A stretch of DNA of 64,000 bases from an uncultured bacterium (GTDB lineage Bacteria > Cyanobacteriota > Vampirovibrionia > Gastranaerophilales > Gastranaerophilaceae): the NCBI GenBank assembly GCA_902777855.1, contig CACYVN010000002.1, forward strand, positions 62,001-126,000. Direction: 5' to 3'. Numbering within the stretch: the first letter of the stretch is position 1; every line of letters starts with the position of its first letter. The notes beneath the pieces were generated by a model. The model was not told the DNA's origin. It saw nothing but the letters and a program-made list of their open reading frames with translations, and did no database searches. Of this stretch, positions 30,822-50,589 are shown piece by piece. The translations under genes and the position numbers were made by a program.

Positions 30822-30823
30822 GG

Positions 30824-33800
30824 TTATCTCCTATTAAAACAAATTTCGAATTCATTAATGTTAAATTGTTCGTTCAAAATAAAACATTTCCAGTTAGAAT
30901 CTTTAGCCTTTTCATATTCTACTTGATTATCAGTGAAAAATAAGAGTATTTTATTATTATTCCATATTAAATCTGCATGAACTATGCTGCCATTTTGTTT
31001 ATTAGTTAAATTAGCATCTTCTGCAAGGGTTTCGTATTCATCAATATAATCAAGTCCTTTTATTTTCAAAAGATTAATAGTATTGATATCATTTTCCTCA
31101 AAATCATATAAATTTATAATATTAGAAATAACATCACTATTATTTTCTCTTTCATGAGTAGTACTATCCTGTTCGTTATAAGATAATATTATTTTTGCAT
31201 TCCTATCAGAAGTTCCATTGAGTTGTTTTACTACTTCTTCCGGTCTAAATAATAAATCAAAAATATTTATATCTTTATCTTCATCAGATTTATACAGAGG
31301 ATGAATTATATTAAAGTCATTTTCTTTTTTTACTATTTGACAAAGTTCATTGAGATTTTTATCAGCCTTTTCTTTTAAGTTTACCCAATAATTTTCTTTT
31401 AGCGATGGTACAAAGGTCTTATCATACATCATTCTTGCCATATCAAGTCCTAATCTCCAATTTAGGAGTCCATGATAATGCAAATTATCATAGCTTTGCA
31501 TACACTCATAACAAGAATTATCACATTTCTCAATATGGTTATGGTTTGTCAAACTTATATAAAAATCTCCATTTTTATCAGCAATAGATTTTAGAACATC
31601 AATAAAGTTTTTTTCATTACATAACCATTTGCTATAACCAGCCCCATTATCAAGAGTATCAGATAAAAATATTTGATTTGTTACTATCTCTCCATTATTA
31701 ACAGGTCGTAATCCAACAGAAATTTCTCGTTTATTTATATCTAGTATATTTGAAGCAGCATCCCTCAATAGAAATGCGAGTGAATAATATGCTATTTTAG
31801 AATATATATTTTCACCATATTTATTAACAACAGATAAATCTATTATATTTGGTATATTAGATATTTCAGCTAAAAATATATCAGTTTTTTTAGATGAAAT
31901 AAACGCAATTTCAGTAGATTCATATTCATTATTTATTCGAGGTTCATATTTTAAGTATTGATTTGCTTCTTTTGATTTTTTATTATATTTTTCAACCGCT
32001 TCGTCAACAACCCAGAATTTTTCATCTATACAATGATTCATAACTTTCTTTTTAGGATTGTCCATTATTTTAGTTACTTTGTAATTGTTTCCCTTATTAT
32101 CATTAATTGCTACTACTTGCATAAATTGTGTTTCTGGAAGATATTTGTAATTATTTCTTTCACTCGTTCTTAATATAATATCATCTGAATGATTAATTTG
32201 AGGTTTTTCTGAATATGGGGCATAATCGAAATTTCCATCATAATATATTGGTTTACAGCTATAATCTGCAGCTTGCGGAGTAAAGAAATTTTCTGGTTGT
32301 ATCGTTTTTGTTTTTATATCATTTTCATAATTACAAACTTCACATATATGAGTTTCTTTGTTATTCTGTTGATTAATTTCAGTTAAATTTTTACAATTTG
32401 GGCAGACCCAAAAATCACGTGTTTTACCTTCATCATCAGCATTTTGAGGTATTTTCCCACTAACTACTCCAACAGACATGTGTATTTTTTTATCTCTTAC
32501 AGTTTCACCTTTTGGAATAAATTGGCTCAATGCGATATCTAAATCTCTATTGATAGAATCCTTTATACTTTGATCACAATCAAATTCTATAATTAAATCT
32601 CTTGTTCTTGTTGGAAAACCAAACATAGGCAATATACCTGCATTGGCAAGTAATTCACTTAAACTTTCATCAAATTCAATTCCATACTCAATAACAGCTT
32701 TATCAATAGTTCCTACTAAGTCATTTTGTATATAATTAATCAGTTTTCCTTTATTATTAAATTTTGATTCTTTTAATAAAACATCTGCAATTTGTTCTAT
32801 TTTATCTTTGTTTTTCTTTATCCATTCTTGAACATAAATTTTATCATCTGCCCATTCTTCTGGAGTTCCAAAATCGCCATGAACATATCTCGTTGCATAA
32901 GAGTCCTTCAATTCCCTATAAATTAACCTTAAAACTTCTTTATTCAGAAAACGTTGGATAATACTTTCTCTTTCTGTATCTAAATAGGGTGGCTTTGGAG
33001 GATCATTTGTTATTTTGTTAGGATAATTAAAATAGTAATTATCATGATTTCTATTCCTACAGATAGTTAAAGCAGTTGCTAATGGTTTTCCTCTACGACC
33101 TGCACGTCCAACTCTTTGTTGATAATTGAATCTTTCAGGTGGCATATTTGCCATCAAAACAGAATCAAGTGAACCGATATCAACACCTGCTTCCATTGTT
33201 GTTGTAACACTTAATATTTCTATAGAATCTTTAATATCGCACTCATTTCCACTAAGAGTATTTTCTTCATTATTTGTTGTATATTTGTCTGTCTTATATT
33301 TATATACATTTTGAAATATCCTTTGTCTGTTTCTTTGTTCCTCTTTATTAGTTTGTGCTGTTAATTCTTCGCATGTAAGTTTTTTAGGAATATTATTTAT
33401 CAAATTAAGATAAAAGTTATGTTTCTTGTCGAATTTATCATTAGTTAAAACTTCTAATTTTTTCCCTTTACAATTTTTATTGATACATTTTTCATTAGAT
33501 GGATTAACATATATCATTTGACACTTTGGACAATAATACATGTTATCCATATCATCTTTCAATTCAATATATAAATCTTCAGTCTTTAAAAAATTATTAT
33601 CATCAATTAAATCCAAATCTTTCATAAGGTTATAAAGATAAAATTTATCCTCTTCTGGGAAAATGAATTTACTATAGTCGTTTAAAAAGCTTCCTTCTTT
33701 TTTTGTTTTTGTTCTATTTGATACATCAAATCTATTTTGCTGTCCCATTATGCGGATAGCTGAATTTATTGCCTGTTTTTTCTTATTATCTAGCTTATAT

Positions 33801-36589: not shown

Positions 36590-37530
36590 TACACTTCTCC
36601 TAAAATTTGACCTAAAACATTAGCAACATACCTTGCTGTGTTTAAGTCAATATTAGCATATACACGCTGATTTTCAATAACTTGGGGATTAAAACCGCTA
36701 AACATAGTCAAAGCCCTATCAATTAATTCAGGAAGCTGTATACCAAGTCTTATATAGAGAGATTTATCTTTATATCGCATTATTTTGTTGTTTTCTCTCT
36801 CTTTATTATGAACTATAAATATTCCATAATTTCTGTCAATTTCGAACCATTTTTGATTATCATAAAGATAGTACGTATTATAACCATAATTTTTTTCTTC
36901 ATATAGACCAAAAGTTAAATTATGTGCATTACTATTTTCAAAATTAAACTTAATAGGATTATATTTTTTTATGAATTTATCAGTTTGTCTAATTGGTGTT
37001 TTTACTTCTTTTAAATTTTTTTGTATAACAGTTATATTTGGAACAATTTTTAATACATTATCACTAAAGTTCTCTGATATCCTTAATTGAGGGAATCTTT
37101 CTTTTACATAATTCAAATCATCAAATTTTATTTTAATACATTTAGGAGCATTACTATTATCTATTTCTTTATATTTTTCAGAATATGTCTTTAATAATAT
37201 TTTAAGTCCTTTTGTTCGACTACCCACAATAAATCCTTCTTGTGTATTCGGAATAACAACTAATGTAGGCGGACAAACTGCAAATTTACTATTTATATAA
37301 TCAAACTCAATATGTCCTAATCTTGAGAACATGCTAAATATTTGATTATATATACTAAAATGGCCGCCTTTTTCGGTTAATTCATTTTTGTAGTCATTCA
37401 AATTGTCTTCATAATCAATATTATTTATATATTGTTTAAATTGAGCAATTGTTCCTGATTTTATATAACTCAGATATTCAAACAAAATATCATAATCAAT
37501 ACAACTTAATATATTATTATTTCTACTCAT
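36589..37530 (-). CDS. Defence-operon protein, 313 aa (DruD-position)
   Basis: Soluble mixed alpha/beta protein. 'MFSRLGHIEFDY...AVCPPTLVVIPN' and 'GFIVGSRTKGLKILL' read like a folded N-terminal domain, and 'YGIFIVHNKERENNKIM...LYIRLGIQLPELIDRALTMFSG' a C-terminal one. No catalytic motif recognised. It stands directly before the DruE-like helicase, where Druantia type I places DruD of similar size, as I remember it. Start overlaps the upstream gene by 8 nt. Could be a specificity or adaptor component. Confidence 0.7.
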   Translation of the reverse strand: MSRNNNILSCIDYDILFEYLSYIKSGTIAQFKQYINNIDYEDNLNDYKNELTEKGGHFSIYNQIFSMFSRLGHIEFDYINSKFAVCPPTLVVIPNTQEGFIVGSRTKGLKILLKTYSEKYKEIDNSNAPKCIKIKFDDLNYVKERFPQLRISENFSDNVLKIVPNITVIQKNLKEVKTPIRQTDKFIKKYNPIKFNFENSNAHNLTFGLYEEKNYGYNTYYLYDNQKWFEIDRNYGIFIVHNKERENNKIMRYKDKSLYIRLGIQLPELIDRALTMFSGFNPQVIENQRVYANIDLNTARYVANVLGQILGEV

Positions 37531-39451
37531 TTATACCCTCAAGATTTGAAGTGTATTTTAATTCATACTGTTTCATAAAATCAGGAGTTTCAAAAGAATT
37601 ATTTTTATCTGATTTTTTTATAAATACAAATTTTAAATTATCAAGCTTTTTAATATTCCTGTAAACATCATCTTCTTTGTTTACTTTTATATTGGGATTT
37701 ATTAGAGATATTCCATCTTGTTTTTCTTCTATATTTTTAATAAACGTCTCTAAGTATATAGATGGCATAACCCTGTTATAATCCCTAAAAACTACAATTC
37801 CCATAGGAATATTTGGATTATTTTTTAACTCCTTATAATAATCAGATATTCCTGTAGCCGAAGGTATAAAACTTCCATCATCTTTAAAGTACCCAAACCA
37901 ATCTTTATATGAGAGCCAATCAAAATCTGGACGTACATAATGTATTTTATAATCAAATTCATCTTGTGCATTTTTCCATGCTCGTAATTCTTTTCCGTTG
38001 TTTAATACTACAAAGAAATTATTCATTTTATCATACAAATCTAATATGTAATCTTCTGAACCATCTATTTCTTGAGATAAATTGGATATGAACTTATCTG
38101 GGTCGGTATCTGAAAGTAAAGCTATTCTCGAACTGCTATGCATATATTCTTGAGATTTTATTGTTACATCATATTCATTAGACAAGACCGTTCGATTTGT
38201 ATTAATCTTTAATTCTTTATCAATATTACGCTGATCTCTTCTGTTTGCAACTTCTAAAACTACTTCTTCTTTTAATTCTGGGATTTTTTTTATGATAAAT
38301 TCACATAATGCTTTATCCGATATAACCATTTTTTTTAAATCTTGTTTAAATTGTGATTCATATCGTATTAAATTTTTTAAATTATCAGTAGTAATACATT
38401 TCCAGTTTCTTAATTTATCATTTTCTCGTTTTATATCCTCATAATCTGAAAATTTGTCTAGCTCCTTCTGTTTCTCTTGAAGTTTATCTTCATAATTTTT
38501 TTGCATCTTCTCAAAATCACCTGAAGGAGTTTTTTTATTTCTTAATTCATAATTTTCATTTTTTAGATTTTCTTTATCTTTTTTTATTTGATCATAATCA
38601 GCATATTTTTCCTGAAGATTTTTTATTTCTTTATAAAAATCTTCTTTTTGCTCAGCCAATTTTTTCTCATTGTCATCTTTTAATATCGCAATTTGTTTCG
38701 CTAATTCATCTTTGTGTTCTTTTTTTAATTCATCAATCTGCGCCACATGTTTTTTTGAGTTTTCTATTAATTCTTTCTCGATATCCTTTTTTGCTTGTTT
38801 TATTTCGTCATAATCTTTTTTATTTTTTAATTCAGATTCTAATTCTTTTACTCTACTATTTAATTTTTCTAAATTTTTATCTCTGTCATCTTTTTCGTTC
38901 ACCTTATTCAGTAATGCTAACCTATAAGGAGCAGTTTTAATCTCTTTTTCTATTTTTTTACTTGTTGAAATAGGTGAAAATCTATATAATGTCGATAATG
39001 TTTCTCTTGAAACTTTATTTTTCTCTTTAAGTAAAATTTTAATAAGTTGATTATAATCGGGTTTACCATCTAATTTTGGGATTGTCCCTATTTTATTTAT
39101 TTCTGCATTTGAAACACTCCATGCTAATATAACTCTACTAAATACATCTAATGCGATTTCTTGCGGCGTTACTTTCTGGGTGTGCTTACTATTCATAAAA
39201 AACCCTTTTATTTCCCCTTTTAAGGCTTTACAATAATTTTCTTTTGTTTCTTTCCCAAATTTTATAAGATTATTCTTTTCATTTTTGTATTTTGAAACTA
39301 CAAATTTTAAAAGGACATAATTATTTAAAAACGTGCGCGCATCACTAACAGATATTTCATCCAGCAATTGCATTAATTCTTCAACAGGACTTGAAACTAT
39401 TAAATCTATTTTTTCTTTCGGATAACCATAATTTTTTTCTTCGTCCATCAT
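37523..39451 (-). CDS. Coiled-coil defence-operon protein, 642 aa (DruC-position)
   Basis: An N-terminal helical domain (about 1-185), a long coiled coil (about 190-350; repeated Lys/Glu heptads such as KELESELKNKKDYDEI), then a C-terminal globular domain (about 360-642) with 'SSSRIALLSDTDPDKFISNL' and 'PNIPMGIVVFRDYNRVMPSIYLETF'. No nuclease or ATPase motif seen. The size and place (second of three genes before the DruE-like helicase) match DruC in Druantia, from memory. The coiled coil suggests a dimeric scaffold or sensor. Start ATG pairs MM; 1 nt after the 604-residue gene's stop. Confidence 0.7.
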   Translation of the reverse strand: MMDEEKNYGYPKEKIDLIVSSPVEELMQLLDEISVSDARTFLNNYVLLKFVVSKYKNEKNNLIKFGKETKENYCKALKGEIKGFFMNSKHTQKVTPQEIALDVFSRVILAWSVSNAEINKIGTIPKLDGKPDYNQLIKILLKEKNKVSRETLSTLYRFSPISTSKKIEKEIKTAPYRLALLNKVNEKDDRDKNLEKLNSRVKELESELKNKKDYDEIKQAKKDIEKELIENSKKHVAQIDELKKEHKDELAKQIAILKDDNEKKLAEQKEDFYKEIKNLQEKYADYDQIKKDKENLKNENYELRNKKTPSGDFEKMQKNYEDKLQEKQKELDKFSDYEDIKRENDKLRNWKCITTDNLKNLIRYESQFKQDLKKMVISDKALCEFIIKKIPELKEEVVLEVANRRDQRNIDKELKINTNRTVLSNEYDVTIKSQEYMHSSSRIALLSDTDPDKFISNLSQEIDGSEDYILDLYDKMNNFFVVLNNGKELRAWKNAQDEFDYKIHYVRPDFDWLSYKDWFGYFKDDGSFIPSATGISDYYKELKNNPNIPMGIVVFRDYNRVMPSIYLETFIKNIEEKQDGISLINPNIKVNKEDDVYRNIKKLDNLKFVFIKKSDKNNSFETPDFMKQYELKYTSNLEGINE

Positions 39452-39452
39452 A

Positions 39453-41267
39453 TTATGCCTCCAGTTCTTTCATATATCTTTGTTTTAACCCATATAATTG
39501 AGGTTTGTACAACTTGGAATTATTCAATCTCATATCAAATGCTTTTATTATATTGTTAATATAAGTCTTTTTATCTTCATTAATGGAACCGGGCTTATTT
39601 GATAAAAACAAATTCTCTATATAGCATCCATTAATGAAATTAGGGTTTTCACCATTTCCGTTTGTTTTAACAAATATGCCATCTTGAAAATAATTGTATA
39701 TGAATTCTTGATCACGTTCTTCAAATTCATATTTTATTTCATAATTTTTATTAGGAACATGCTTAACTTTTATACAGTGAGGCCCAATTTGCTTATCATT
39801 TAATCTTATCGGGATTTTATAAGGTTGAAAGCTGCCATTATCTATACTATAATCCGTTGAAGAATTCTTATTGTTAATTATGAATACTTTTCCATTAGTA
39901 TTTTTTCGCTTTATGTCGTTTTTATTAGATTTATTTATATTTAATATTGGCCCGGCATTTTGTAAGTATTCATCTTTTTGTCCATTTTTAAGACCTTTTA
40001 ATAATTTTATTGTATCGCCACTCTTTATATTAAAATCAGAGTCTGGGCATTTACAAGTTGCACCTAAAATATATAGGCTTGACAAATTATTTTCTCCTAA
40101 AGATTTTTCTTTGATATCTTTATCAAAAATTTTATTTAAATTTTTTCGGTATTTATTAAAAAACAATCTACCTGCAATTATTACAACATTGTCGCTCACA
40201 TTTGCAGAAAAATTTTCTATATAATCACCTTGTTCTTCAGCGACCAATAATATATATTCTTTTGTGTAATCATTTTGTAAATATTTTATTTCTTCATTTT
40301 CTATATAGAATTTATTACACATAGAAACTTCTTCGGGTTCTATATATTTATAAAAAACATCTCGGTCTTTTTTATATTCTTCGAATTCTTCAGGAACATT
40401 TTTCTTTTGTTTAAACTCAAGAAGAAATTCCCCACTATCACTATAATAACGTAGTTTAGGGCTAATTACTAGTTTTTTGCCATTAATAGTATCTATATAA
40501 TCATCGCCATTTTCTAAAAAATAATTATATAAATCTTTTATTATATCTTTTATTTTTTCTTTTAGTTCTTCTTGCGCAATTGCTTTTTGGAAACCTTTAC
40601 TATATCCACTTTGATTTATTATTTTTTTGTAGTCATAATCACTCAATCCATTATTATTTTTATTTATTTTTTCAAATTGTTTGTTTAATAACCTACGATC
40701 TTTATCTGAAATAATCGCCTGTGAGATTATTCTCCCAACAATATCGTTATTGCCTCTTTTATATAGTTTTTGAAATTTAATCTTGTATCCTTGAGATTCT
40801 ACAGACTGTTCAAAATTATCAAATAATTCTGAACAATAGTCATATTCATTAGCATATAAAATATTTCTATCAACTTGTTCTTCAGATATATTCTTATATT
40901 TTGCTATTATTTTTTTTATCTTGCTTCCCCAATAAGCATTAGATGAAAAGTTACCTTCATTGACCATAATTGTTGCAGCATATACAAAAAATGCTATCAG
41001 TGCGGTTTGTTTAGGGATATTATCCTTTATTTTTTCAATATTTTCTATTTTAAAACCGTATATACCTTTATTACGTGGTCTTTCTTCACAAATCTCATTT
41101 AGCACACACTTACAAAAGGATTCAAGAGGTTTTTCTTCTCCTAATTTTTCCCCTATATTGTTAATGAGTTTTTCGTCCACGTAAAATAAACAACGAATTC
41201 CTTCTGGATTTTCGTTAAAGAAGTAATTATATATTTCATTATTCCAGTCTTGATAATTTGCCATCAT
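39453..41267 (-). CDS. First protein of defence operon, 604 aa (DruB-position)
   Basis: Reads MMANYQDWNNEIYNYFF then a helical N-terminal domain (about 60-270) and a beta-rich C-terminal domain from about 300, with 'YLLVAEEQGDYIENF'-like and 'VFIINNKNSS' strands and a C-terminal helix. A CKCPDSDF pair of Cys lies near residue 405. No catalytic motif recognised. It stands first in the operon, where Druantia places DruB, and has a good promoter in front. Either of two adjacent ATGs (41267 or 41264) could be used; the ribosome site is weak. Confidence 0.7.
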   Translation of the reverse strand: MMANYQDWNNEIYNYFFNENPEGIRCLFYVDEKLINNIGEKLGEEKPLESFCKCVLNEICEERPRNKGIYGFKIENIEKIKDNIPKQTALIAFFVYAATIMVNEGNFSSNAYWGSKIKKIIAKYKNISEEQVDRNILYANEYDYCSELFDNFEQSVESQGYKIKFQKLYKRGNNDIVGRIISQAIISDKDRRLLNKQFEKINKNNNGLSDYDYKKIINQSGYSKGFQKAIAQEELKEKIKDIIKDLYNYFLENGDDYIDTINGKKLVISPKLRYYSDSGEFLLEFKQKKNVPEEFEEYKKDRDVFYKYIEPEEVSMCNKFYIENEEIKYLQNDYTKEYILLVAEEQGDYIENFSANVSDNVVIIAGRLFFNKYRKNLNKIFDKDIKEKSLGENNLSSLYILGATCKCPDSDFNIKSGDTIKLLKGLKNGQKDEYLQNAGPILNINKSNKNDIKRKNTNGKVFIINNKNSSTDYSIDNGSFQPYKIPIRLNDKQIGPHCIKVKHVPNKNYEIKYEFEERDQEFIYNYFQDGIFVKTNGNGENPNFINGCYIENLFLSNKPGSINEDKKTYINNIIKAFDMRLNNSKLYKPQLYGLKQRYMKELEA

Positions 41268-41284
41268 TTACACCCAACACAATG

Positions 41285-41313
41285 ATTATATCTATTTTTT
41301 AGTGATTTTGCAA
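41285..41313 (-). promoter_or_regulatory. Promoter of the five-gene defence operon
   Basis: On the minus strand TTGCAA (41308-41313) and TATAAT (41285-41290) are 17 nt apart, just before the ATG at 41267. It faces left toward all five genes. Confidence 0.7.
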
Positions 41314-41489
41314 GGTTGTTATATACTACTTATACTGTTTATATAAATAAATGATAATTTATTATCCTGTCAATTCTGGACATAATAATATATGAAATTT
41401 ACTATGTCTAAATGATACAAATTTTAATTTAGTGCTTGATACATTATCAAAAACAAGTGATTAATATCATAGCAGAAAGGAGTTTTGCT

Positions 41490-41690
41490 ATGACAGAAAG
41501 AGATTATAGACTTTATGGTACAAAAATTTTAAATGTAAAAACACAAGAAATAGGTTTATTGATTTGTCTTTGGGAAAATAAATTTGCAGATAAAACTGTA
41601 GATTTTGCGACTTGTGTTGATAAAACTGGTAAGCGATACAATATTGAACTTGATAATATCAGAGGGTTTGAAGATGATTTTGAAAAATAA
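41490..41690 (+). CDS. Small hypothetical protein, 66 aa, between defence operons
   Basis: From the ATG at 41490, chosen for the AAAGGAG site 8 nt upstream; a start at 41436 lacks one. A compact beta-rich protein (TERDYRLYGTKILNVKTQEIGLLICLW), similar in style to small mobile-element proteins. Not recognised. It overlaps the next gene by 17 nt. Confidence 0.6.
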   Translation: MTERDYRLYGTKILNVKTQEIGLLICLWENKFADKTVDFATCVDKTGKRYNIELDNIRGFEDDFEK

Positions 41691-41907
41691 ATTAACTAAA
41701 GAAACGTTGGACATTCCGTACTCAGAATTTAGGATAAAGTTTGCAAAAGAAATCCAGGATGCGTTTGAAAGTTACCGCAAAACGCAATTAAATAAATATT
41801 CTTGGAACTTCAAAGACGACAATTCTTTGGAGTTTAATTTTTACTTTGAACTTCATTGGAATTTCAATCGTTTTGGAAATAGCAACTGGTATATTGAAAA
41901 AATGTAA
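41674..41907 (+). CDS. Small hypothetical protein, 77 aa, paired with the previous gene
   Basis: Start at the ATG 41674, inside the end of the preceding gene; AGAGGG lies 5-6 nt upstream. Charged, with an aromatic C-terminus (NFYFELHWNFNRFGNSNWYIE). Not recognised. The overlap suggests coexpression. The pair runs rightward between two leftward operons, so it has its own control; a toxin-antitoxin-like or regulator role is possible but unsupported. Confidence 0.55.
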   Translation: MILKNKLTKETLDIPYSEFRIKFAKEIQDAFESYRKTQLNKYSWNFKDDNSLEFNFYFELHWNFNRFGNSNWYIEKM

Positions 41908-41916
41908 GTGAGATTA

Positions 41917-42594
41917 TTATAAATTTTCTATTTCAACTAGTTTGGGGTTAGCACAGAACTTTTTGACTAAACTTGTGCACCTTGGACTCGGATGTGAAGG
42001 CTGTTTTGCACCAGACTTATTTATTCTGTATGCTTGAACAAGATGTCTTTTTGATTTTATTGAATAAATCAAGTCTTTTAAATGACTGTAATATTCATTA
42101 TTTAATTTTGTTTTAACACCATTACCCCAGGCAATTATTATCTTGGATACATTGCTTGGATATTTATCAGTAAGTCTAAAAATCGGATTGTTGGCATATT
42201 CATACTCACAATCGATCATTCTTACAGCATCTTCTACTTGAGGATGACGGATAGTAAAAGAATTATAAATTAACATTCCGCCACATTTAACTTTTTCATC
42301 AGAATAATTTTGAAGTGCATAGCAAATTCTAACACAATTTTTTAGGGTTTCATCTAACACATTCGCATTTGCGATACTCGGGTTAAATAAAACAAATATA
42401 TTGCGATTAGGGCAATTTTTATCCCAAATAACTTCATAACTTAGCCTGTTTTTGGGACATCGGCTATTCCCTTTTTCGATAACAGATAATTTCTTATAAT
42501 AGGATGAAGCAAGATTTGTATATTCGTCTTTCCCATATATGGGATTCTTTTCAGCATTATTATTTACGAAATCAACAAATTCTTCAATATCCAT
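41917..42594 (-). CDS. DUF1643 protein
   Basis: 225 residues. Shows the DUF1643 pattern: 'IFVLFNPSIANANVLDETLKNCVRIC' (LNPS.ADa..D.T...), 'CGGMLIYNSFTIRHPQ' (GG...vN.f..R), 'IIIAWGNGVKT' (aWG) and 'AKQPSHPSPRC' (G.P.HP). The family's activity is unknown, but it is often found on mobile elements and near restriction genes. It starts 10 nt after the GmrSD-like gene, so the two are one operon. Confidence 0.85.
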   Translation of the reverse strand: MDIEEFVDFVNNNAEKNPIYGKDEYTNLASSYYKKLSVIEKGNSRCPKNRLSYEVIWDKNCPNRNIFVLFNPSIANANVLDETLKNCVRICYALQNYSDEKVKCGGMLIYNSFTIRHPQVEDAVRMIDCEYEYANNPIFRLTDKYPSNVSKIIIAWGNGVKTKLNNEYYSHLKDLIYSIKSKRHLVQAYRINKSGAKQPSHPSPRCTSLVKKFCANPKLVEIENL

Positions 42595-42603
42595 ATCATA
42601 TCC

Positions 42604-44415
42604 TTATATTGAATAATAGAAATTCTTAATTTTTTCAGCCATCATTTTTCTACGCTCGAGCAAAAATTCATCATAATCGTTTGCTTGCATAGAGAATATC
42701 TTTTCCGGGATACAATTCATTTTTAAATTATTTCTTAAATCTTCTTCATTTAATATTGTTCCAACAGTACATTGGTTATTGTGGCATTGTTCAAGTGCTT
42801 TCGTGAAATATTCGTTTGGAGCTTGTTTCCCAACGGAAATATTAACGGTTGTATCTAAATAAGTATAATTAGCAACTTGGTTATATTTTGATTTATCATC
42901 ATATCCGTTTTGTTTTAAAAATTCTTTTGGGAAAATATGATGAACGTGACCAGTTACAGTTACTAAATCAGAAACTTTTGTTGTACTTGAAAATAATGAT
43001 TGTTCTGCATTCAAAACTTGCGCAGCTATAAATGTATTAAAGTATGGACTGTTTATTGATGATGTTTCCAAGTTTTGAACTAATCCAACATTCCAGAAAG
43101 TATCTGATAATTCTGCTTCTTCAACTTCTGCAAAGAATCTTCTGAATCCTTTTTCTTCTATATTTCTTAAGTCTCTGTCCATTTGAGATTCTGGGGAACC
43201 AATATATCTGCTAGTTAATGTAGATAATACAAACCATTTTTGAACAAATCTTTTTATCTCAATTTTATCAATATCTTTTGAATTATTTAAAATCAAATAT
43301 AAAGTATAAGCAAAATCCAATGTCATTTTTGAATTTAACAATTTTTCATTAATAAAACCGCAAGCTTTTATTAATAATACAAAATTCTTAAAATTATATT
43401 CGTTCATAAAATTTTTAACACCAGATGTTAATTGATTAAAACTATTTTCTGCAATTTCTTCTTTAAAAGTCCTGGTTTCAAAATCTCTGCCTGATAATAA
43501 ATTAACTAAATCTTTTAACTTACCTCTACCAAATTTATGCATCAAACAAACTCTCAACATATCATTATAATCGGGATCGTATATTGCTTCTTTATCATCT
43601 TTTAGCCATTTTAACATCGGAGCAAATTCTGATTGCATAAATTCATCATCTGTCGAAGATAATTTTTCATAAAAAATAGGATCTACTGCAAGATGGCAGA
43701 AATAGTCAATTGCTTTTCTTAAAATATTTCCACCATATTTAGAATCTGCTGCAATTTTTGACATCGCAAAGTCAGATTCATTCAAGCGTTTGCCTTGTGA
43801 ATTTATTCTAACAAAGATTTCTGTTACTTCATTAATATCTAAATCAGGAACTAAAATAATTGTCCCCATTTGACATGTTCGTATGTCTAAAAGTTTTTGG
43901 ATTGCTTTATTAATAACATCAGAAGATACTTCCGGGTTATTAGCCATATATTCATTAATAAAATTAAAAGCATTAAAATCTGGTTTAAAAACAACAGCAA
44001 TATCTGCAATCCAATTTTTACTTTTTACATGAACGGGGGTCTGGACAGCAAATCTTTCTTCATTACCTTCTGCCAATGGATTAAATGCGATTTTGTATGC
44101 TTTTGTTTCATAATCCTCAGTTAATATCTTCTGTCCCGCTAATGCCGTCATTAATGCGGTCACGCGCTGTTGTCCATCTATTAAAATTTTAGTACCACCG
44201 GCTTCTTTACCGTCTTTTAATCTTACAGTTGGATTCTGCCAAATTATTAAATATCCTGTTGGATACCCACTATACAAAGAATCAATTAAATCCCTTACTT
44301 TGCTTGGGTTCCATACAAACGGTCTTTGTATTTCTGGTATGGATATTTCACCACTATTAATGAAACCTAAAATATTATCTACTGAATATTGTGCAACTGA
44401 ATATTTATTAGTCAT
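42604..44415 (-). CDS. GmrSD-like type IV restriction protein (DUF262 + DUF1524/HNH)
   Basis: 603 residues. The N-terminal DUF262 ParB/Srx-like NTPase domain has IPEIQRPFVWNPSKVRDLIDSLY and IDGQQRVTALMT (DGQQR at 80-84), the motif that hydrolyses nucleotide. The C-terminal DUF1524 HNH nuclease has VHHIFPKEFL around 490 and NYTYLDTTVNISVGKQAPNEYF. Single-chain GmrSD enzymes cut DNA carrying modified (for example glucosylated hydroxymethyl-) cytosines, and the fused form is common. Target modification here is unknown. It is followed by DUF1643. Confidence 0.92.
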   Translation of the reverse strand: MTNKYSVAQYSVDNILGFINSGEISIPEIQRPFVWNPSKVRDLIDSLYSGYPTGYLIIWQNPTVRLKDGKEAGGTKILIDGQQRVTALMTALAGQKILTEDYETKAYKIAFNPLAEGNEERFAVQTPVHVKSKNWIADIAVVFKPDFNAFNFINEYMANNPEVSSDVINKAIQKLLDIRTCQMGTIILVPDLDINEVTEIFVRINSQGKRLNESDFAMSKIAADSKYGGNILRKAIDYFCHLAVDPIFYEKLSSTDDEFMQSEFAPMLKWLKDDKEAIYDPDYNDMLRVCLMHKFGRGKLKDLVNLLSGRDFETRTFKEEIAENSFNQLTSGVKNFMNEYNFKNFVLLIKACGFINEKLLNSKMTLDFAYTLYLILNNSKDIDKIEIKRFVQKWFVLSTLTSRYIGSPESQMDRDLRNIEEKGFRRFFAEVEEAELSDTFWNVGLVQNLETSSINSPYFNTFIAAQVLNAEQSLFSSTTKVSDLVTVTGHVHHIFPKEFLKQNGYDDKSKYNQVANYTYLDTTVNISVGKQAPNEYFTKALEQCHNNQCTVGTILNEEDLRNNLKMNCIPEKIFSMQANDYDEFLLERRKMMAEKIKNFYYSI

Positions 44416-44570: not shown

Positions 44571-44578
44571 TTCAGCAT

Positions 44579-44660
44579 ACCTATAAAGAGTGTACGAGGG
44601 ACAAGCCCGTTGACTACACAGCAACCTATTAAGTTAGGTGCTAAAGCTTGAATGATAGGT
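44579..44660 (+). promoter_or_regulatory. S-box (SAM-I family) riboswitch aptamer
   Basis: Conserved S-box features appear in order: GAGGGAC...GCCC, TGAC, CAGCAACC, AGGTGCTAA. P1 is ACCTAT (44579-44584) with ATAGGT (44655-44660). The ATAGGT strand can instead pair with ACCTAT at 44673-44678, giving an antiterminator that excludes P1. Binding of SAM would favour P1 and hence the terminator (OFF switch). The P4 region is short, so it may be a variant of SAM-I. Confidence 0.78.
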
Positions 44661-44671
44661 GGATGATAAGA

Positions 44672-44697
44672 AACCTATCGCTATGGGTTCCTTTTTT
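44672..44697 (+). terminator. Riboswitch-controlled terminator
   Basis: AACCTAT/ATGGGTT stem with four-base loop, followed by CCTTTTTT. Its 5' arm is the alternative partner of the riboswitch P1 strand. Confidence 0.75.
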
Positions 44698-44736
44698 GTT
44701 GCTCTTATAGGTTTACAAGAAAAAAGGAGAAAAACT

Positions 44737-45342
44737 ATGGAACAACAAGAAGAAAAAAGTTTGAAGAATTACTACGCAAATTGCGTACTTAAAAACAAAT
44801 TCGGATTATCAAGAGATTTGGCAGAAATTGTATCAAAATTTATGCTAAACTTTTATGACAAATTTTTTGAAGATTTTGATCCCGAAAAGGCAAAACATTA
44901 TCGTAATGCTGCATCAAATATGATGAGCCCAAGACCTAATTACACTTCAAAAATAGAGTTTTACATAGGCTTAATGGATAAAGATACAAGATCATATCAC
45001 TATACAAAAGAACAGGCAAAACAAAAAGTGTTTGATGTCTTAGGAAATTGTACAATTATAGAAGCCACCGGCTGTTATACAAATGATAAAGGTGAACGCA
45101 TGATTATGGATACTCTCGTTGCAACAAAAATTCTGGAACAAGTGCCAAAAGATTTTCAGCACGATGCATCTTATAAATTAAAAGAAATCTTTAATCAATC
45201 AAGCATACTAAATGTAAGAAATACTTGTGAAATTAGATATAATAATGAATTTCCTGAAACAGTTCGCTATATTCAAATGACAATGAATGATTATGATTTA
45301 TCGTGGGAAGAAGCAGAACAAGCGATGAATGCTGGATGGTAA
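44737..45342 (+). CDS. Unknown protein, 201 aa, under SAM-riboswitch control
   Basis: Starts at the ATG 44737 with AAAGGAG upstream; the earlier ATG at 44659 lies inside the riboswitch/terminator and is unlikely. An N-terminal helical part (about 1-65) is followed by 'FYIGLMDKDTRSYHYTKEQAKQKVFDVLGNCTIIEATGCYTNDKGERMIM', which looks like a small alpha/beta domain, then a C-terminal helical tail. I do not recognise the family. Not a known methionine or SAM enzyme. It lies between the recombinase remnant and a methyltransferase pair, so a SAM-related role is suggested by the switch alone. Confidence 0.7.
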   Translation: MEQQEEKSLKNYYANCVLKNKFGLSRDLAEIVSKFMLNFYDKFFEDFDPEKAKHYRNAASNMMSPRPNYTSKIEFYIGLMDKDTRSYHYTKEQAKQKVFDVLGNCTIIEATGCYTNDKGERMIMDTLVATKILEQVPKDFQHDASYKLKEIFNQSSILNVRNTCEIRYNNEFPETVRYIQMTMNDYDLSWEEAEQAMNAGW

Positions 45343-45493: not shown

Positions 45494-46762
45494 GTGGTCT
45501 TATTAGAATCAGAAATACCTAAAAAAAACATTTTAAGTGTAACAAAAATAAAGCCAATGGATGGGACATTCAAAAATAATTTTGATATTCCTATTCATCG
45601 TTGGTACCCTTATATAGAAGGGTTTTCTATAAATTTTGTTCGGTCAATTTTAAACAATTATCCCCAAAACATTATTGTATATGATCCATTTAATGGTTCT
45701 GGAACAACAACCTTAACTGCAAGTTCAATGGGAATTAAGAGTTATGCTTCCGAAGTAAATCCATTTATGCGTTTTATTGCAAATACAAAAGTAAATGTTG
45801 TTAAAAGCATATTAGAAAATAACGAAATATTTGTTTTAAACAAAACATTTAAGGATTTATGTGATAAATTATTAGACACAAATTATAGAAAAAAAGTATT
45901 CAAAGAATGTAAAACAGTAAATGATTGTTACATAGAAAAAGATTTTTTCGATAAGAAAGTTTTACAAGATATTTCTTATATTAAATATTTGATAAAAAGT
46001 ATAAATAATGATGATATTGGAAATATCGCTTTGTTAAGTTTAGCCTCAATCACAGTTGAGATCTCAAATATGATTAGAGCTGCTGACTTGCGAAAGAAAA
46101 CATTAAAAGAAAAAGAGTTAGCCTCTAACAGTACAATAGATTTATTTATACAAAAATTCTCAAATGTTATTTCTGATATTCAATCAGTGAGAAACATGAA
46201 TTTTGAAGTAACAGAGTTTATAAGTGATAATGCAAAATCTATTAGTAAAAATTATTATAATACCGTTGATTTAGTGATAACATCACCACCTTATGTAAAT
46301 GGCACTAATTACTTTAGAAATACAAAATTAGAATTATGGATTTTAGATTTTATTTCAAAAGAAACAGACTTGAAAGTATATAGAGAACAAGCCATTACGG
46401 CAGGAATAAACAATGTTTCAGTTAATAATAAAATAAATCCATTAGATATTGTTGAACCATATGCAAAACAATTAGATAAATTATCTACAGATAAGAGAAT
46501 ACCAAAAATGATACGAGCATATTTTAGCGATATGAATGTTGTTTTCAAAAATTTTAACTTACTTCTCAAAAATAATGGAAGAATATATTTTGATATAGGT
46601 GATTCCGAATATTATGGTATTCATATTCCAGTGGATGAATTAATTGTATCTATAGCCAATAGCAATGGTTTTAAATTAATAGAATGCAAGTTACTGAGAA
46701 AAAGGCATTCAAAAACCGGAAATACTTTGTCTCAAAAATTATTAATCTTTGATAAGGAGTAA
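45494..46762 (+). CDS. DNA methyltransferase 1 of a restriction-modification pair
   Basis: 422 residues with a GTG start at 45494, supported by AAGGAG 8 nt upstream. Motif I DPFNGSGTTTL at 64-74 binds SAM, and motif IV is TSPPYVNGTNYF near 264. The I-then-IV order with TSPPY is typical of N4-cytosine or N6-adenine gamma/alpha-like type II enzymes. The last residues 'HSKTGNTLSQKLLIF' are unremarkable. The second methyltransferase begins 2 nt after its stop, so both are coupled and probably protect the two strands of an asymmetric site. Confidence 0.88.
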   Translation: MVLLESEIPKKNILSVTKIKPMDGTFKNNFDIPIHRWYPYIEGFSINFVRSILNNYPQNIIVYDPFNGSGTTTLTASSMGIKSYASEVNPFMRFIANTKVNVVKSILENNEIFVLNKTFKDLCDKLLDTNYRKKVFKECKTVNDCYIEKDFFDKKVLQDISYIKYLIKSINNDDIGNIALLSLASITVEISNMIRAADLRKKTLKEKELASNSTIDLFIQKFSNVISDIQSVRNMNFEVTEFISDNAKSISKNYYNTVDLVITSPPYVNGTNYFRNTKLELWILDFISKETDLKVYREQAITAGINNVSVNNKINPLDIVEPYAKQLDKLSTDKRIPKMIRAYFSDMNVVFKNFNLLLKNNGRIYFDIGDSEYYGIHIPVDELIVSIANSNGFKLIECKLLRKRHSKTGNTLSQKLLIFDKE

Positions 46763-46763
46763 A

Positions 46764-47927
46764 ATGCGAGAACTACTTTGTAAAGACGAAACATTTGAGA
46801 ATTTGGCAAAAGATTTTATAGATAAATTCCCTTATCAGGAAGAACCTTATTGTTCTCGTAATTGGGGACATAGATGGCACTCTTTTTGTTCTTATCACGG
46901 TAAATTAAAGCCCGCAATTGCACACTTTTTAATTAAAAACTTTACCAATGAAAATGACACTATACTAGACCCTCTTGGCGGAGTTGGCACAATAGCATTA
47001 GAAGCTATATTACAGGGTAGAAATGCAGTATCAAATGATTTGAGTGAATTAGCATATGTCATTACAAAAGCAAAAATTGAAAAAAATAATTATGAAAATA
47101 TTTTTAAGGTAGTAGAGAATTTATCGGCATATATAGAAAATAACAAAACCAACGAACTTGAGAATCATTTATATGACGATTTTGGACTAAATGGTAAAAT
47201 TCCAGAATATTTTGAAAAAAACACCTATGCTGAAATTCTTTCAGCAAGAAAATATTTTAAAAATAAAAAGCTTGAAGATTTAAGTCCGGCAGAATGTGTT
47301 GTCTTTGCATCTTTTTTACATGTTTTACATGGAAACAGACCATATGCACTGTCTAGAAATTCTCATCCACTTACTCCGTATGCTCCTACTGGTGAATTCA
47401 TATACAAAAACGTTATAGAACATATTGTAGATAAAATAAATCTTACGTATAAAAATAACTTTTTTAATGAATATAATGGAATCGGTAAATCAGCTTTGGG
47501 AAATTATACGCAATTAAGTAATATTTATAATAATTATTTTGATGCAATTATTACTTCTCCTCCATTTTTAAGTTCTTTAAAATTTTACTCTCAAAATTGG
47601 ATGCGTTTATGGCTTTCAGGTTGGGAACCGGAAGACTACACAAATGCAAATATGCGTTTTTTAGAAGGTCAACAGAAAAAAGATATAAATGTATACGATA
47701 GCTTTTTTGAAATGTCATATAATGTTTTAAAGTCAAATGGTCGTATTATATTGCATTTAGGGAAAACTGAAAAATACGATATGGCAGATTTGTTATCTTC
47801 TATTGCAAAAAAATATTTTGTGGAAGTTTATAGAGGTGATGAATCAGTCAAAAACATTGAGAAGCACGGAATAAAAGATAAAGGTGGAACAACTCATCAT
47901 CAATACTTATTCTTAATCAAACGCTAA
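46764..47927 (+). CDS. DNA methyltransferase 2 of a restriction-modification pair
   Basis: 387 residues from the ATG at 46764 (AAGGAG upstream). Motif I DPLGGVGTIALEAILQGR (69-86), motif IV TSPPFLSSLKF near 262, and 'LNVLKSNGRIILHLGKTEKY'-like motif V/VI region. PPF instead of PPY in motif IV is a variant seen in active enzymes. Ends in a 4-nt overlap with the convergent HNH gene. With methyltransferase 1 it forms a two-MTase system. Confidence 0.87.
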   Translation: MRELLCKDETFENLAKDFIDKFPYQEEPYCSRNWGHRWHSFCSYHGKLKPAIAHFLIKNFTNENDTILDPLGGVGTIALEAILQGRNAVSNDLSELAYVITKAKIEKNNYENIFKVVENLSAYIENNKTNELENHLYDDFGLNGKIPEYFEKNTYAEILSARKYFKNKKLEDLSPAECVVFASFLHVLHGNRPYALSRNSHPLTPYAPTGEFIYKNVIEHIVDKINLTYKNNFFNEYNGIGKSALGNYTQLSNIYNNYFDAIITSPPFLSSLKFYSQNWMRLWLSGWEPEDYTNANMRFLEGQQKKDINVYDSFFEMSYNVLKSNGRIILHLGKTEKYDMADLLSSIAKKYFVEVYRGDESVKNIEKHGIKDKGGTTHHQYLFLIKR

Positions 47928-49399
47928 TCATGTTTTAATGTAATGCTTTTAGGATACTTATTTGTTTTTCGATTGTATTCTTTTATCAAATCAATTTTTA
48001 GACCAGATGCGATTATAACTTTTTGTATTGAATGATATATTTGGTCTGCCGCTTTTTTACCTTCCCTTACTTTTTGATAATCCTTATGCATTAAAAATTC
48101 ATCAAAAAACCAATCTATTTTGCTAACTAATTTTTTTACAGCTTCTAAATTAATAATTTTAGATGATAAAATTTCAAGTGAAAGTTTTGTTATTTTTGAT
48201 AATTGCACTAAATGGTCTTTGTCATAAAACTCAACAGGAAATAAATCGCTCTTTTTACTATTACAAGATGAACAAAGACATGTGGCATGAATATCAAGTG
48301 GCCACAAATAAGCTAATGGCATAGTATGGTCTAAGTCCATTTCATTAACAGTAATACTTTTACCACAATTAAAACACTTTTTGTCAAATGTTTCCCAAAT
48401 GTGTTTATCAAATTCTTTCTTTTCTTGTTTACGGAACTTATGATAAATCCACTCATTATCAAGAAGCGTATCTACTAAAACTTCTATTGCACGTCTTCGT
48501 AGGGAATCTTCTCTATGTTGTGTTGAAGTCCGCATTGGATTTAATGGTGCATTTACAAAGAATTTTTTACAAGCCTTACATTCTAATTGATGTCCATAAT
48601 AAGTTTGGACTTGATTATCCTCATTTATTTGTTCAATTTTCGGATAATTTTTATTCATAATTTTATACTTTGCAAAATTTTTATGTGTACACGGCGCCCT
48701 TGATGCACAATGATTTGAATATGCAAGAGTAGTTCTCTCCTCATCTATGTTAATAGGAATATATCTCGAGCAACGATTACAACTTTTTATGACAAGAATT
48801 TTCCCTTCTTTAAATGCATTGATAGAAGGATTCACCAAATTTAGTGCTATGTCTTGTTCATGATTTAAGTAATAAGTTTCAGGAACAGTAATTGCTGTTT
48901 TTTTGTTGAATTCACTCAATGCATTTTCATTATCAATATAATGAGGCTGGGTAACTATATCAAAATCTAAACCATATATGTGATATGAAATTTCTTTTTC
49001 TCCAGAGAATGCAATTTCAATAAATACATTTTCTATTTCATCATTTTTTAATATGTCGATATAATCGTGTACACCAATTTTATTCCATTTGTTGTAATCT
49101 AAATCAATCGCAAAATTCGTACTGCATTTTTTATCTTGATATAAATATTTAAACTTGATTTCAACAGACATTTTACTCTCTGGGAAAATATAAAAGCCTA
49201 AAGCTAACATAGCTTTATTTAATCCAAATATATCAACTAATTTTATGCTTTTCTTATAAAATTTTAGCAAAGCAGATTTATTTTTATCATGAAAAAACCA
49301 GGATTTAACTATCTTGCATTCGCTTCCCGTAGTCTCACCAGAGGTATGAAAACCACTTTCTCTTGTTGTATCGCGTCTTTTATAAGTTCTAAATCTCAT
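47924..49399 (-). CDS. HNH endonuclease (putative type II restriction enzyme)
   Basis: 491 residues. Two Cys-rich regions near 205-240 (CNRCSRYI, HCASRAPC) and about 285 (LECKACKK) probably bind zinc. The HNH core (about 335-380) is CFNCGKSITVNEMDLDHTMPLAYLWPLDIHATCLC then CNSKKSDLFPVEFY, with the DH catalytic pair and a second Cys pair. It is convergent with and abuts the second methyltransferase, the normal relationship in type II restriction modules. Which sequence it cuts is unknown. A homing-type HNH protein is less likely because of its size and context. Confidence 0.85.
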   Translation of the reverse strand: MRFRTYKRRDTTRESGFHTSGETTGSECKIVKSWFFHDKNKSALLKFYKKSIKLVDIFGLNKAMLALGFYIFPESKMSVEIKFKYLYQDKKCSTNFAIDLDYNKWNKIGVHDYIDILKNDEIENVFIEIAFSGEKEISYHIYGLDFDIVTQPHYIDNENALSEFNKKTAITVPETYYLNHEQDIALNLVNPSINAFKEGKILVIKSCNRCSRYIPINIDEERTTLAYSNHCASRAPCTHKNFAKYKIMNKNYPKIEQINEDNQVQTYYGHQLECKACKKFFVNAPLNPMRTSTQHREDSLRRRAIEVLVDTLLDNEWIYHKFRKQEKKEFDKHIWETFDKKCFNCGKSITVNEMDLDHTMPLAYLWPLDIHATCLCSSCNSKKSDLFPVEFYDKDHLVQLSKITKLSLEILSSKIINLEAVKKLVSKIDWFFDEFLMHKDYQKVREGKKAADQIYHSIQKVIIASGLKIDLIKEYNRKTNKYPKSITLKHD

Positions 49400-49584
49400 T
49401 TTTATATTTTATAACAGATAAATTTTAGACACAACTAAGTATATAAAGTTAATATTTTAGGTATTTTATAAAAATTCAAAAAACATTACTATCAACAGAT
49501 ATGTCTAATAAAGAATAAATATATTTAAAAACATTTGTTTATTATAAAATTATATTATTAAAAGTAATATTTTACAAAAGGAAT

Positions 49585-50589
49585 ATGGGACAATCTAATT
49601 CAAATATAAATTATATTGATAATGGAGGAGCCAATGCACAGAAAGGCTTTAATTATCAAGATGCATTAGCGATGCTTATAATTATTACCAACTTTTCTAA
49701 AAATGATTTTTGTATATATCTTGAATGTAGAGATGATTTGGAAGTAGATTTAACAGAGCAAAAAATTTTTATACAAGTAAAATCTACTAAACAAAGTGTA
49801 GCAACTCTTATACGACAAAACAAGAAACGGGATGGGACTTATAATAAGTCTACTTTATACAAGAATTTAAATAAATCTTGTGATGACAAATTGAATAAAT
49901 ATAAAATCGTCACGACATCATACCCAGAAGGGAAATCAACAATTAAAGGAGAAATCTTTAATGAGTTATATCAATATACTGATGAACAAAAGAAATTAAT
50001 TGTTGAAACCCTTTTGCAACAAGGACTAAAAAAAGAAGAACTTGAACAAAAATTAAAAAATAGTTATATTTATGTTTCACCATTTGATAATAATTTAGAT
50101 GTTGCACTTACTTATTTGCTTGGAGTTATGGCTGAAGAAGGTATAAGTGTCGACAATGACCGAGGAAGATTGCTTTTATGTGAGTTGCTAACTGATATAC
50201 ATAAAAAAGCAGAAAAAAAGATCATAACGCCAAGTGATATAGAAAAAAAGAAATTAAAAAAGGATGAATTGATTAAACTTGCAAAAGTAGAAAAATGCTA
50301 TAAATATATGGAAGAAATTACTACGAAGCTTGACAATGCAGGAATTATAAATTTTGATGACAAAATAAGAATTAACGAATATATTCGGGTTGTTGATCTA
50401 AAACATAAATCTGAATATAAGATTGTAGATGATTCAATAATAGATTCTGAATTATCTGGAAACCCTGAGCAAGTTATAAAAGTATTACACGACAAATTAA
50501 TTTCTTTAAACATCAATTCTAATTTACTTTATGCAATATTGATAGATAAATATGTTATGCTCGCTTTTTATAAGGAGAAAATAAATTGA
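49585..50589 (+). CDS. Cap4/DUF4297-type nuclease-domain protein (LmuA-like)
   Basis: 334 residues. N-terminal 'GGANAQKGFNYQDALAMLIII...FCIYLECRDDLEVDLTEQKIFIQVKST' is the dsDNA-nuclease pattern of DUF4297/Cap4: a GF-YQ motif followed by E...DD and a (I/V)QVKS catalytic block. The C-terminal 140 residues (about 195-334) are helical without a recognised motif and may be the partner-binding part. It overlaps the SMC-like gene by 4 nt, so both are coupled. Fits the effector of Lamassu or related ABC-three-component systems. Confidence 0.78.
   Translation: MGQSNSNINYIDNGGANAQKGFNYQDALAMLIIITNFSKNDFCIYLECRDDLEVDLTEQKIFIQVKSTKQSVATLIRQNKKRDGTYNKSTLYKNLNKSCDDKLNKYKIVTTSYPEGKSTIKGEIFNELYQYTDEQKKLIVETLLQQGLKKEELEQKLKNSYIYVSPFDNNLDVALTYLLGVMAEEGISVDNDRGRLLLCELLTDIHKKAEKKIITPSDIEKKKLKKDELIKLAKVEKCYKYMEEITTKLDNAGIINFDDKIRINEYIRVVDLKHKSEYKIVDDSIIDSELSGNPEQVIKVLHDKLISLNINSNLLYAILIDKYVMLAFYKEKIN

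Follow-up and report, generated by a model that had tools for sequence, protein, structure and literature searches.

A P4-less SAM-clan riboswitch precedes mobile accessory genes in Gastranaerophilales, including one for a probable SAM-lyase-fold pseudoenzyme

The DNA analysed here (the window) is a 64,000-nt stretch of the Gastranaerophilaceae contig CACYVN010000002.1, positions 62,001–126,000, from a genome of 1.94 Mb. Coordinates are window positions and all features of Table 1 lie on the + strand; L and G numbers label loci and genomes, all loci come from assembled (MAG-type) genomes, and the findings are computational. The locus consists of a SAM riboswitch leader, the 201-aa gene behind it (P0001) and two DNA methyltransferase genes. 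A PADLOC scan, which covered the window, returned a Druantia-like operon (30824–41267), a GmrSD-type gene (42604–44415) and two type II methyltransferases (45494–47927), in agreement with the preliminary description, which had placed the gene in a defence island next to DNA methyltransferases. Within 28902–44415, DruE, DruL and DruF matches are followed by DUF1643 and GmrSD-type genes, and a 642-aa gene of no assigned family (37523–39451) sits inside the Druantia-like operon. Two further proteins adjoin the methyltransferases (47924–50589), one of 491 aa that weakly matches HNH_5 and one of 334 aa that resembles Cap4 nucleases.

Table 1 Features of the riboswitch locus (window positions)
Feature	Position	Strand	Basis
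P4-less SAM-I-type aptamer (P1, P2 with L2, P3)	44578..44661	+	RF00162, R1 model, covariation
L2 CAAG, pseudoknot 5′ half	44602..44605	+	complementary to 44647–44650
J3/4 CTTG, pseudoknot 3′ half; then short joint to P1, without P4	44647..44650	+	
Antiterminator GATAGGT 44654–44660 / ACCTATC 44673–44679	44654..44679	+	folding, same layout in relatives
Intrinsic terminator hairpin and U-run (predicted)	44672..44697	+	folding
Element X, complementary to aptamer 5′ strand	44694..44713	+	−16.6 kcal/mol in window
Shine–Dalgarno AAGGAG	44724..44729	+	sequence
P0001, 201-aa riboswitch-controlled gene	44737..45342	+	ATG 44737, stop ends 45342
N-terminal helical extension (predicted), residues 1–69	44737..44943	+	A2 alignment, low-confidence full model
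SAM-lyase/GlnB-like domain (predicted), residues 70–165	44944..45231	+	fold model; Met124 at catalytic Glu position
Type II DNA methyltransferase, next gene downstream	45494..46762	+	PDLC03389 284 bits; Pfam N6_N4_Mtase
Second DNA methyltransferase-like gene	46749..47927	+	family scans

The preliminary description had proposed a SAM riboswitch and an Rfam search as its check. Searching the entire window, we obtained RF00162 over the aptamer with 57.3 bits, above the gathering threshold of 44.4 (E 1.3e-10), and in competition within the SAM clan this model was the best, no other clan model scoring higher on the window aptamer. A model built from 11 short copies (R1) gave 105.6 bits. The P1 helix pairs ACCTAT (44579–44584) with ATAGGT (44655–44660), and L2 and J3/4 are complementary; L013 and L017 (the same places as L081 and L084) carry CTAAG with CTTAG, a matched insertion in both pseudoknot halves, so that support for the pseudoknot consists of complementarity and this insertion, outside the covariation scoring. 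Between GGTGCTA and P1, where P4 would stand, 46 of 49 copies have 8–11 nt, the other three being decayed or unclear, and the Rfam alignment of the window aptamer shows a gap at P4. Among 50 aligned copies, in an alignment that was fitted to the model and is hence biased towards structure, 96.8% of cells were paired (32–44% in slid controls), 9 of 20 pairs had changes on both sides, and none of 500 shuffles reached the observed covariation on four of five measures. From alignment A1, L014 (the same place as L097) was excluded owing to a P3 insert, and L001, L002 and L008 were trimmed at the aptamer end. Positions corresponding to the SAM-I core (A6, U7, G11, C44, A45, A46, U57, G58, G86, A87 and U88) were kept in 47–50 of the 50 aligned copies, with G86 in 46. 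Judged by its sequence, the S-box is real; because the P4 helix is missing, we class it as a SAM-clan variant and not as canonical SAM-I. SAM is presumably its ligand in vivo.

The variant occurs sporadically in this Gastranaerophilales-type family: the R1 search of 383 family genomes found 48 copies in 42 of them (16 of 41 genera), and when 383 genomes were drawn from the whole order, in part overlapping with these, 38 had a match, G067 and G071 alone lying outside the family. RF00162 itself matched in 17 of 98 relatives scanned. Among the matches listed for these, all those of the own family were short, without P4 and ahead of non-metK-like genes, and those outside it mostly preceded MetK-like starts (8 of 21 matches listed, by eye), the MetK-like genes downstream of canonical copies being named by a MetK signature. 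The genome of the window has three RF00162 matches: the one described here, L001 ahead of an N-formylglutamate amidohydrolase-like gene and L002 ahead of a 149-aa zinc-ribbon-like protein. Drift from a canonical S-box was considered and rejected: the metK gene of the same genome (L107) had no SAM-family match at E≤1 and no R1 match, and elsewhere in the order and class, in other families, canonical copies with P4 stand ahead of metK-like genes.

With SAM-I (RF00162) the variant shares a score above gathering, P1, P2 and P3, the L2 × J3/4 pseudoknot, the core positions and a terminator/antiterminator of OFF logic; it differs in the absence of P4, in leading mobile accessory genes instead of methionine or SAM genes, and in the post-terminator element X that many copies add. 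From SAM-IV (RF00634) it appears to differ, in that no P5 or PK-2 was seen in it by eye and that clan competition chose RF00162. In the part of its description available (PMC6890682), SAM-IV is without P4 and has PK-2 and P5, and to that extent the missing P4 and the presence of PK-1 are common to both. For SAM-I/IV (RF01725), the sections available of PMC6890682 and PMC2864571 describe a riboswitch with P4 and without the P2 internal loop and PK-1; the ligand-binding core is shared by that partial description, but the variant is the reverse, with PK-1 present and P4 absent, and falls outside this class.

We took a census of the genes behind 49 leaders (48 fetched loci and the window), scanning one or two members per type against families and assigning the remainder by reading. 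P0001 relatives (family A) followed 10 leaders, zinc-ribbon proteins (B) 20, N-formylglutamate amidohydrolase-like proteins (C) four, small excisionase-like proteins (D) three, IS1595-type transposase-like genes accompanied by a partner gene (E) nine, and other genes or none three. By these gene assignments the variant does not regulate methionine genes, leading five accessory gene types instead, of which the zinc-ribbon, amidohydrolase-like and IS1595-type ones have no evident link to SAM. The suggestion that P0001 is no ordinary methionine gene thereby holds: its candidacy as one was dropped, family scans giving no Met-family match. The conservation of gene and riboswitch in relatives, proposed earlier as a further check, proved close. 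The A profile had 11 matches, 10 of them riboswitch-led, comprising all 10 strong members, and the unlinked one was weak; of the 24 matches to the B profile, 21 were riboswitch-led, including all 20 strong ones, and the unlinked ones were among the weakest. In both families gene and riboswitch are thus tightly linked.

The defence setting is less constant. By eye, six of the 10 P0001-family members lie near defence-type genes (L050, L051, L052, L059, L077 and the window) and four among housekeeping genes (L054, L062, L079, L085), the nine neighbourhoods other than that of the window having been judged in this way; a defence island is present in the window, but that such an island is the regular home of the gene is not supported. 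In L051 and L052, Mu-type transposase and ATPase genes follow the P0001-family gene. In L059 a Cas9-like 1035-aa protein, recognized by eye, lies upstream of the short P0001-family gene, about −3855 to −748 from the aptamer. The IS1595-type loci (L065, L073, L074, L076, L078, L080, L082, L086, L094 and L101) carry a conserved ~160-aa partner gene behind the SAM riboswitch, a check that covered all of them except L101. Their conserved unit starts at a promoter-like stretch ~70 nt ahead of the aptamer, and similarity around the aptamer spans about −70 to about +1826; the unit was rejected as a complete insertion sequence, since no convincing terminal inverted repeats were found. A Lar-like identity of the B-family zinc-ribbon protein was likewise discarded, the matches being weak and below cut-off.

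Both the antiterminator and the terminator drawn in the preliminary description are present as described, in a layout that would be OFF with SAM. The antiterminator excludes both the P1 3′ strand and the terminator 5′ arm, and the terminator hairpin (AACCTAT-CGCT-ATGGGTT, 44672–44689) is followed by CCTTTTTT. Folded to the U-run, the window leader reached −32.8 kcal/mol with the antiterminator versus −30.4 kcal/mol with P1 enforced and the terminator formed, a predicted gap that is small, as a switch needs. The window terminator is weak (−6.8 kcal/mol, one mismatch, versus −10.0 for the hairpin of the typed relative and about −10 to −11 for other A-family members), and it was absent from the listing of a generic terminator scan. 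Among the leaders examined, a script detected a hairpin with a T-run in 41 of 46, counting L061, L091 and L092, whose hairpins are negligible (−1.3 to −1.5 kcal/mol). It detected none in L064, L083, L066, L069 and L070; in L064 and L083 a hairpin with a shorter T-run is visible by eye. These leader analyses, like those of X pairings and accessibility below, were made without L093, L095 and L096, and in them the start of L074 and the aptamer end of L097 were set by hand. The predicted layout of aptamer, antiterminator and terminator fits transcription control, OFF with SAM.

The exchange of ATAGGT between the two ACCTAT copies, on which the earlier account of the switch relied, is not the whole story, as a third complementary element (X) follows the terminator and can pair with the 5′-most ~22 nt of the aptamer. 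This pairing amounts to −12.6 to −21.8 kcal/mol in families A, B, C and E and to −9.1 to −12.4 kcal/mol in the three D members; in L081, L084 and L087 the terminator itself holds the best X match. A second partner of X is the Shine–Dalgarno, in all four C members and in the majority of B and E members, exceptions being L087 (−3.4) and L073 (−7.4) (X of L082 and L086 was set by hand for this comparison). This pairing is clearest in C (−15.1 to −17.4 kcal/mol), and in E it favoured own sites no more than B sites. Of 32 B, C and E members, 13 lost more than 0.2 of Shine–Dalgarno accessibility when P1 was enforced and none gained as much; no such drop was seen in the 10 A or three D members. B, C and E relatives thus probably have a second, translational layer of control. 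The amidohydrolase-like genes of L053, L055, L057 and L097 show strong pairing of X with the Shine–Dalgarno, with a compensatory change in L057.

For the window, X was rejected as an anti-Shine–Dalgarno: the pairing is worth −5.0 kcal/mol, 32 of 32 sites of other families were as good (shuffle p 0.88), and accessibility was unchanged with P1 enforced. Two-layer control of P0001 is accordingly unsupported, and X may merely lock the ON state there. In L066, L069 and L070 the terminator is absent and X is kept directly after the aptamer with its pairing retained, and we predict these to be translation-only versions of the switch. Known dual transcription/translation platforms, in the portion of the source available (PMC2258182), carry the Shine–Dalgarno within the terminator 3′ arm; two control layers are what the B, C and E relatives are predicted to share with them, and a separate post-terminator X that pairs with the aptamer 5′ strand or the Shine–Dalgarno is what sets the relatives apart from that partial description. 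One aptamer type would then, by prediction, occur in nature with control of transcription alone, of translation alone and of both.

P0001 had been called unrecognised, and no Pfam, NCBIfam or PADLOC family matched it, neither DUF3574 nor S-AdoMet_lyase among the Pfam families appearing at E≤0.1; a weak match (2e-4) was to phrog_3543, a PHROG of unknown function. Its closest kin were found in Candidatus Gastranaerophilales and related MAGs. The family has ~201-aa and ~105-aa forms with a common C-terminal domain and the start MEQQ, the N-terminal extension being missing from the short ones. Structure prediction of the 201-residue protein had been another of the checks proposed. The full-length model was too poor (pLDDT 51.8), and we therefore folded residues 70–165 alone, obtaining from 4 close sequences a beta-alpha-beta-beta-alpha domain with pLDDT 80.6 and pTM 0.71. 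This model best matches a SAM lyase, and to that extent the gene is no longer unrecognised. Foldseek placed the phage SAM lyase Svi3-3 (6zm9) at the top (E 5.7e-4, TM 0.66 by query length), the sole match at E≤0.001 among 1115, followed by CutA and PII proteins. In VIA, 6zm9 was again first (Z 9.5, rmsd 2.1 Å, 89 aligned residues), with its apo form 6znb at Z 9.0; the SAM-AMP lyase 9gad (Z 7.7) was on par with the unrelated ferredoxin-like chains MscS and S6 (Z to 7.5), ferredoxin-like folds being widespread and matches below Z 8 possibly reflecting common arrangements.

Compared pairwise by sequence, the family resembles SAM lyases weakly, and identity of the domain to the known lyase is ~17–21%. 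Searched with an A2 profile, all PDB sequences gave 6zm9 as the only match at E≤10 (E 1.1), and hhalign of the A family to the SAM lyase gave E 0.0029 with a probability of 10.8%. Against nine T3-type SAMases the A family gave E 0.2 with a misalignment; the unrelated control A5 gave 0.13. By hhalign the A-family profile matched, at E 2.1e-8, the L118 protein, a DUF3574-like product of 102 aa from relative G318. Sequence alone is insufficient for kinship with SAM lyases; sequence, predicted fold and SAM-riboswitch context nevertheless agree.

The lyase active site allows the comparison to be carried to single residues. In the portions of the Svi3-3 study available (PMC7877911), G56, E69 and Q104 are conserved SAM-binding residues, Y58 packs on the ligand, S50 and S71 contact adenosine and ribose, E69Q and E69A cut activity 4500- and 1500-fold, and the active sites sit between subunits of a trimer; the matching E71Q in a SAM-AMP lyase abolishes immunity, according to the available part of PMC12255297. 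Residue equivalences were taken from the profile–PDB alignment, and hhalign gave the same register. T106, G112 and Q154 (equivalent to S50, G56 and Q104) are invariant in the 10 P0001-family members, and residue 126 (S71) is T or S in all 10. Y58 corresponds to Y in six, F in two and C in two, and the E105 equivalent is variable. Since 12 of 75 columns are invariant, the chance of three given positions all being so is 0.003, which is approximate, conserved columns being favoured by the alignment itself. Residue 124, at the place of the catalytic E69, is M in eight members and L in two; the Glu is kept in the nine T3-type SAMases fetched and in the L118 protein. Because this residue is replaced, P0001 is not filed here as a SAM lyase. 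It shares with the phage SAM lyases (Svi3-3, T3 SAMase) and the type III CRISPR SAM-AMP lyase the predicted fold and the ligand-side residues, and differs from them in the Met or Leu for Glu, in SAM-riboswitch control and in the helical N terminus of its long members. P0001 is probably a SAM-lyase-fold pseudoenzyme, which we infer could bind SAM.

We consider it reasonably probable that P0001 is an accessory gene induced at low SAM, that its product is a pseudoenzyme of the SAM-lyase fold and that responding to SAM loss is what it most likely does. With SAM bound, P1 would form, the terminator would fold and the mobile accessory gene would be off; as SAM falls, the P1 3′ strand would join the antiterminator and the gene would be transcribed. 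The C-terminal domain of the product would be ferredoxin-like (GlnB-like) with the fold of phage SAM lyases; the lyase residues that hold SAM (S50, G56, S71 and Q104) have their equivalents in it, but Glu69 is replaced by Met or Leu. Such a pseudoenzyme might have SAM, or its relatives MTA and SAM-AMP, as a ligand, or pair with true lyase subunits, without lyase activity of its own, and might, next to SAM-using restriction–modification genes, answer a loss of SAM such as phage SAM lyases cause. Since a true SAM lyase induced at low SAM would make little sense, a product without the Glu suits such a switch. The idea, raised in the preliminary description, of a response to phage SAM-degrading enzymes gains indirect support because the C-terminal domain has the predicted SAM-lyase fold without the catalytic Glu; the suggestion made along with it, protection of methylation, is speculative. 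An anti-SAM-lyase or SAM-sensing defence role for P0001 is plausible.

How such a protein would act can be pictured in several ways. As a PII-like sensor, a trimer would bind SAM, MTA or SAM-AMP and regulate a partner such as a nearby methyltransferase, nuclease or transposase; the GlnB-like predicted fold, the retention of ligand-side residues despite loss of the catalytic Glu, the extra N-terminal helical part of long members and the Mu-type transposase genes in L051 and L052 speak for this, but neighbours vary among genomes and no constant partner is visible, and we regard it as a tentative possibility. Alternatively, the dead lyase-like protein would enter phage SAM-lyase trimers and inactivate them, so that falling SAM induces its own remedy. 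The active sites of the lyase are common to neighbouring subunits in the sections of PMC7877911 available, the adjacent ligand positions persist with the Glu gone, the layout is ON at low SAM and methyltransferases adjoin in the window; yet at such low identity hetero-trimers with known lyases are doubtful, and no protein above the cut-off for PF23780 (phage SAM lyase) was found in 98 relatives, which makes this mode of action unlikely. Phage relatives of P0001 were found neither by tblastn nor in viral scans.

The role in SAM loss would itself be put in question if riboswitch and gene formed a selfish or neutral cassette in integration hot spots, the defence setting being coincidental and the function elsewhere. 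Its sporadic occurrence, the unrelated gene types behind the same riboswitch (IS1595-type transposase genes included) and the A members in housekeeping settings are compatible with that, and it deserves about the same guarded credence as a PII-like sensor; against it, a SAM-lyase fold in a SAM-riboswitch gene would be a striking coincidence. That the aptamer senses a relative of SAM (SAH, SAM-AMP) could be argued from the missing P4 and the unusual regulon genes, but the retention of the SAM-I core positions (46–50 of 50 copies) makes this the most improbable of the alternatives.

Phages are known to use SAM loss against defence systems that depend on methylation. The preferred reading, a response of P0001 to SAM loss, can be extended to a SAM-depletion alarm kept by bacteria in defence islands, in which the P4-less riboswitch would sense a SAM crash caused by phage SAM lyases or SAM-AMP lyases, the dead lyase-fold protein would neutralise the phage enzyme or its product, and the same signal would control other mobile genes, IS1595-type transposases included. 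We hold this extension to be quite unlikely, a shade more so than the inactivation of phage trimers; were it true, SAM loss would be a general infection cue in this lineage. In our literature search, outside which subscription journals mostly lay, no host sensor of SAM loss was reported, nor a P4-less variant, a defence-island SAM riboswitch or SAM-lyase inhibitors. The P4-less SAM aptamers would constitute a family whose regulon consists of mobile genes. Because the defence island joins a SAM riboswitch and a predicted lyase-fold pseudoenzyme in one transcription unit, host sensing and answering of SAM depletion become testable with one cassette.

The L118 protein (1483–1791, − strand) keeps the Glu and most active-site positions and weakly matches Pfam S-AdoMet_lyase (0.0041) and phrog_2226 (0.01); it is a candidate SAM or SAM-AMP lyase, of bacterial or prophage origin. 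Phage SAM lyases are often annotated as SAM-dependent methyltransferases, as in T3 (NC_003298, 901–1359), and so is phrog_2226.
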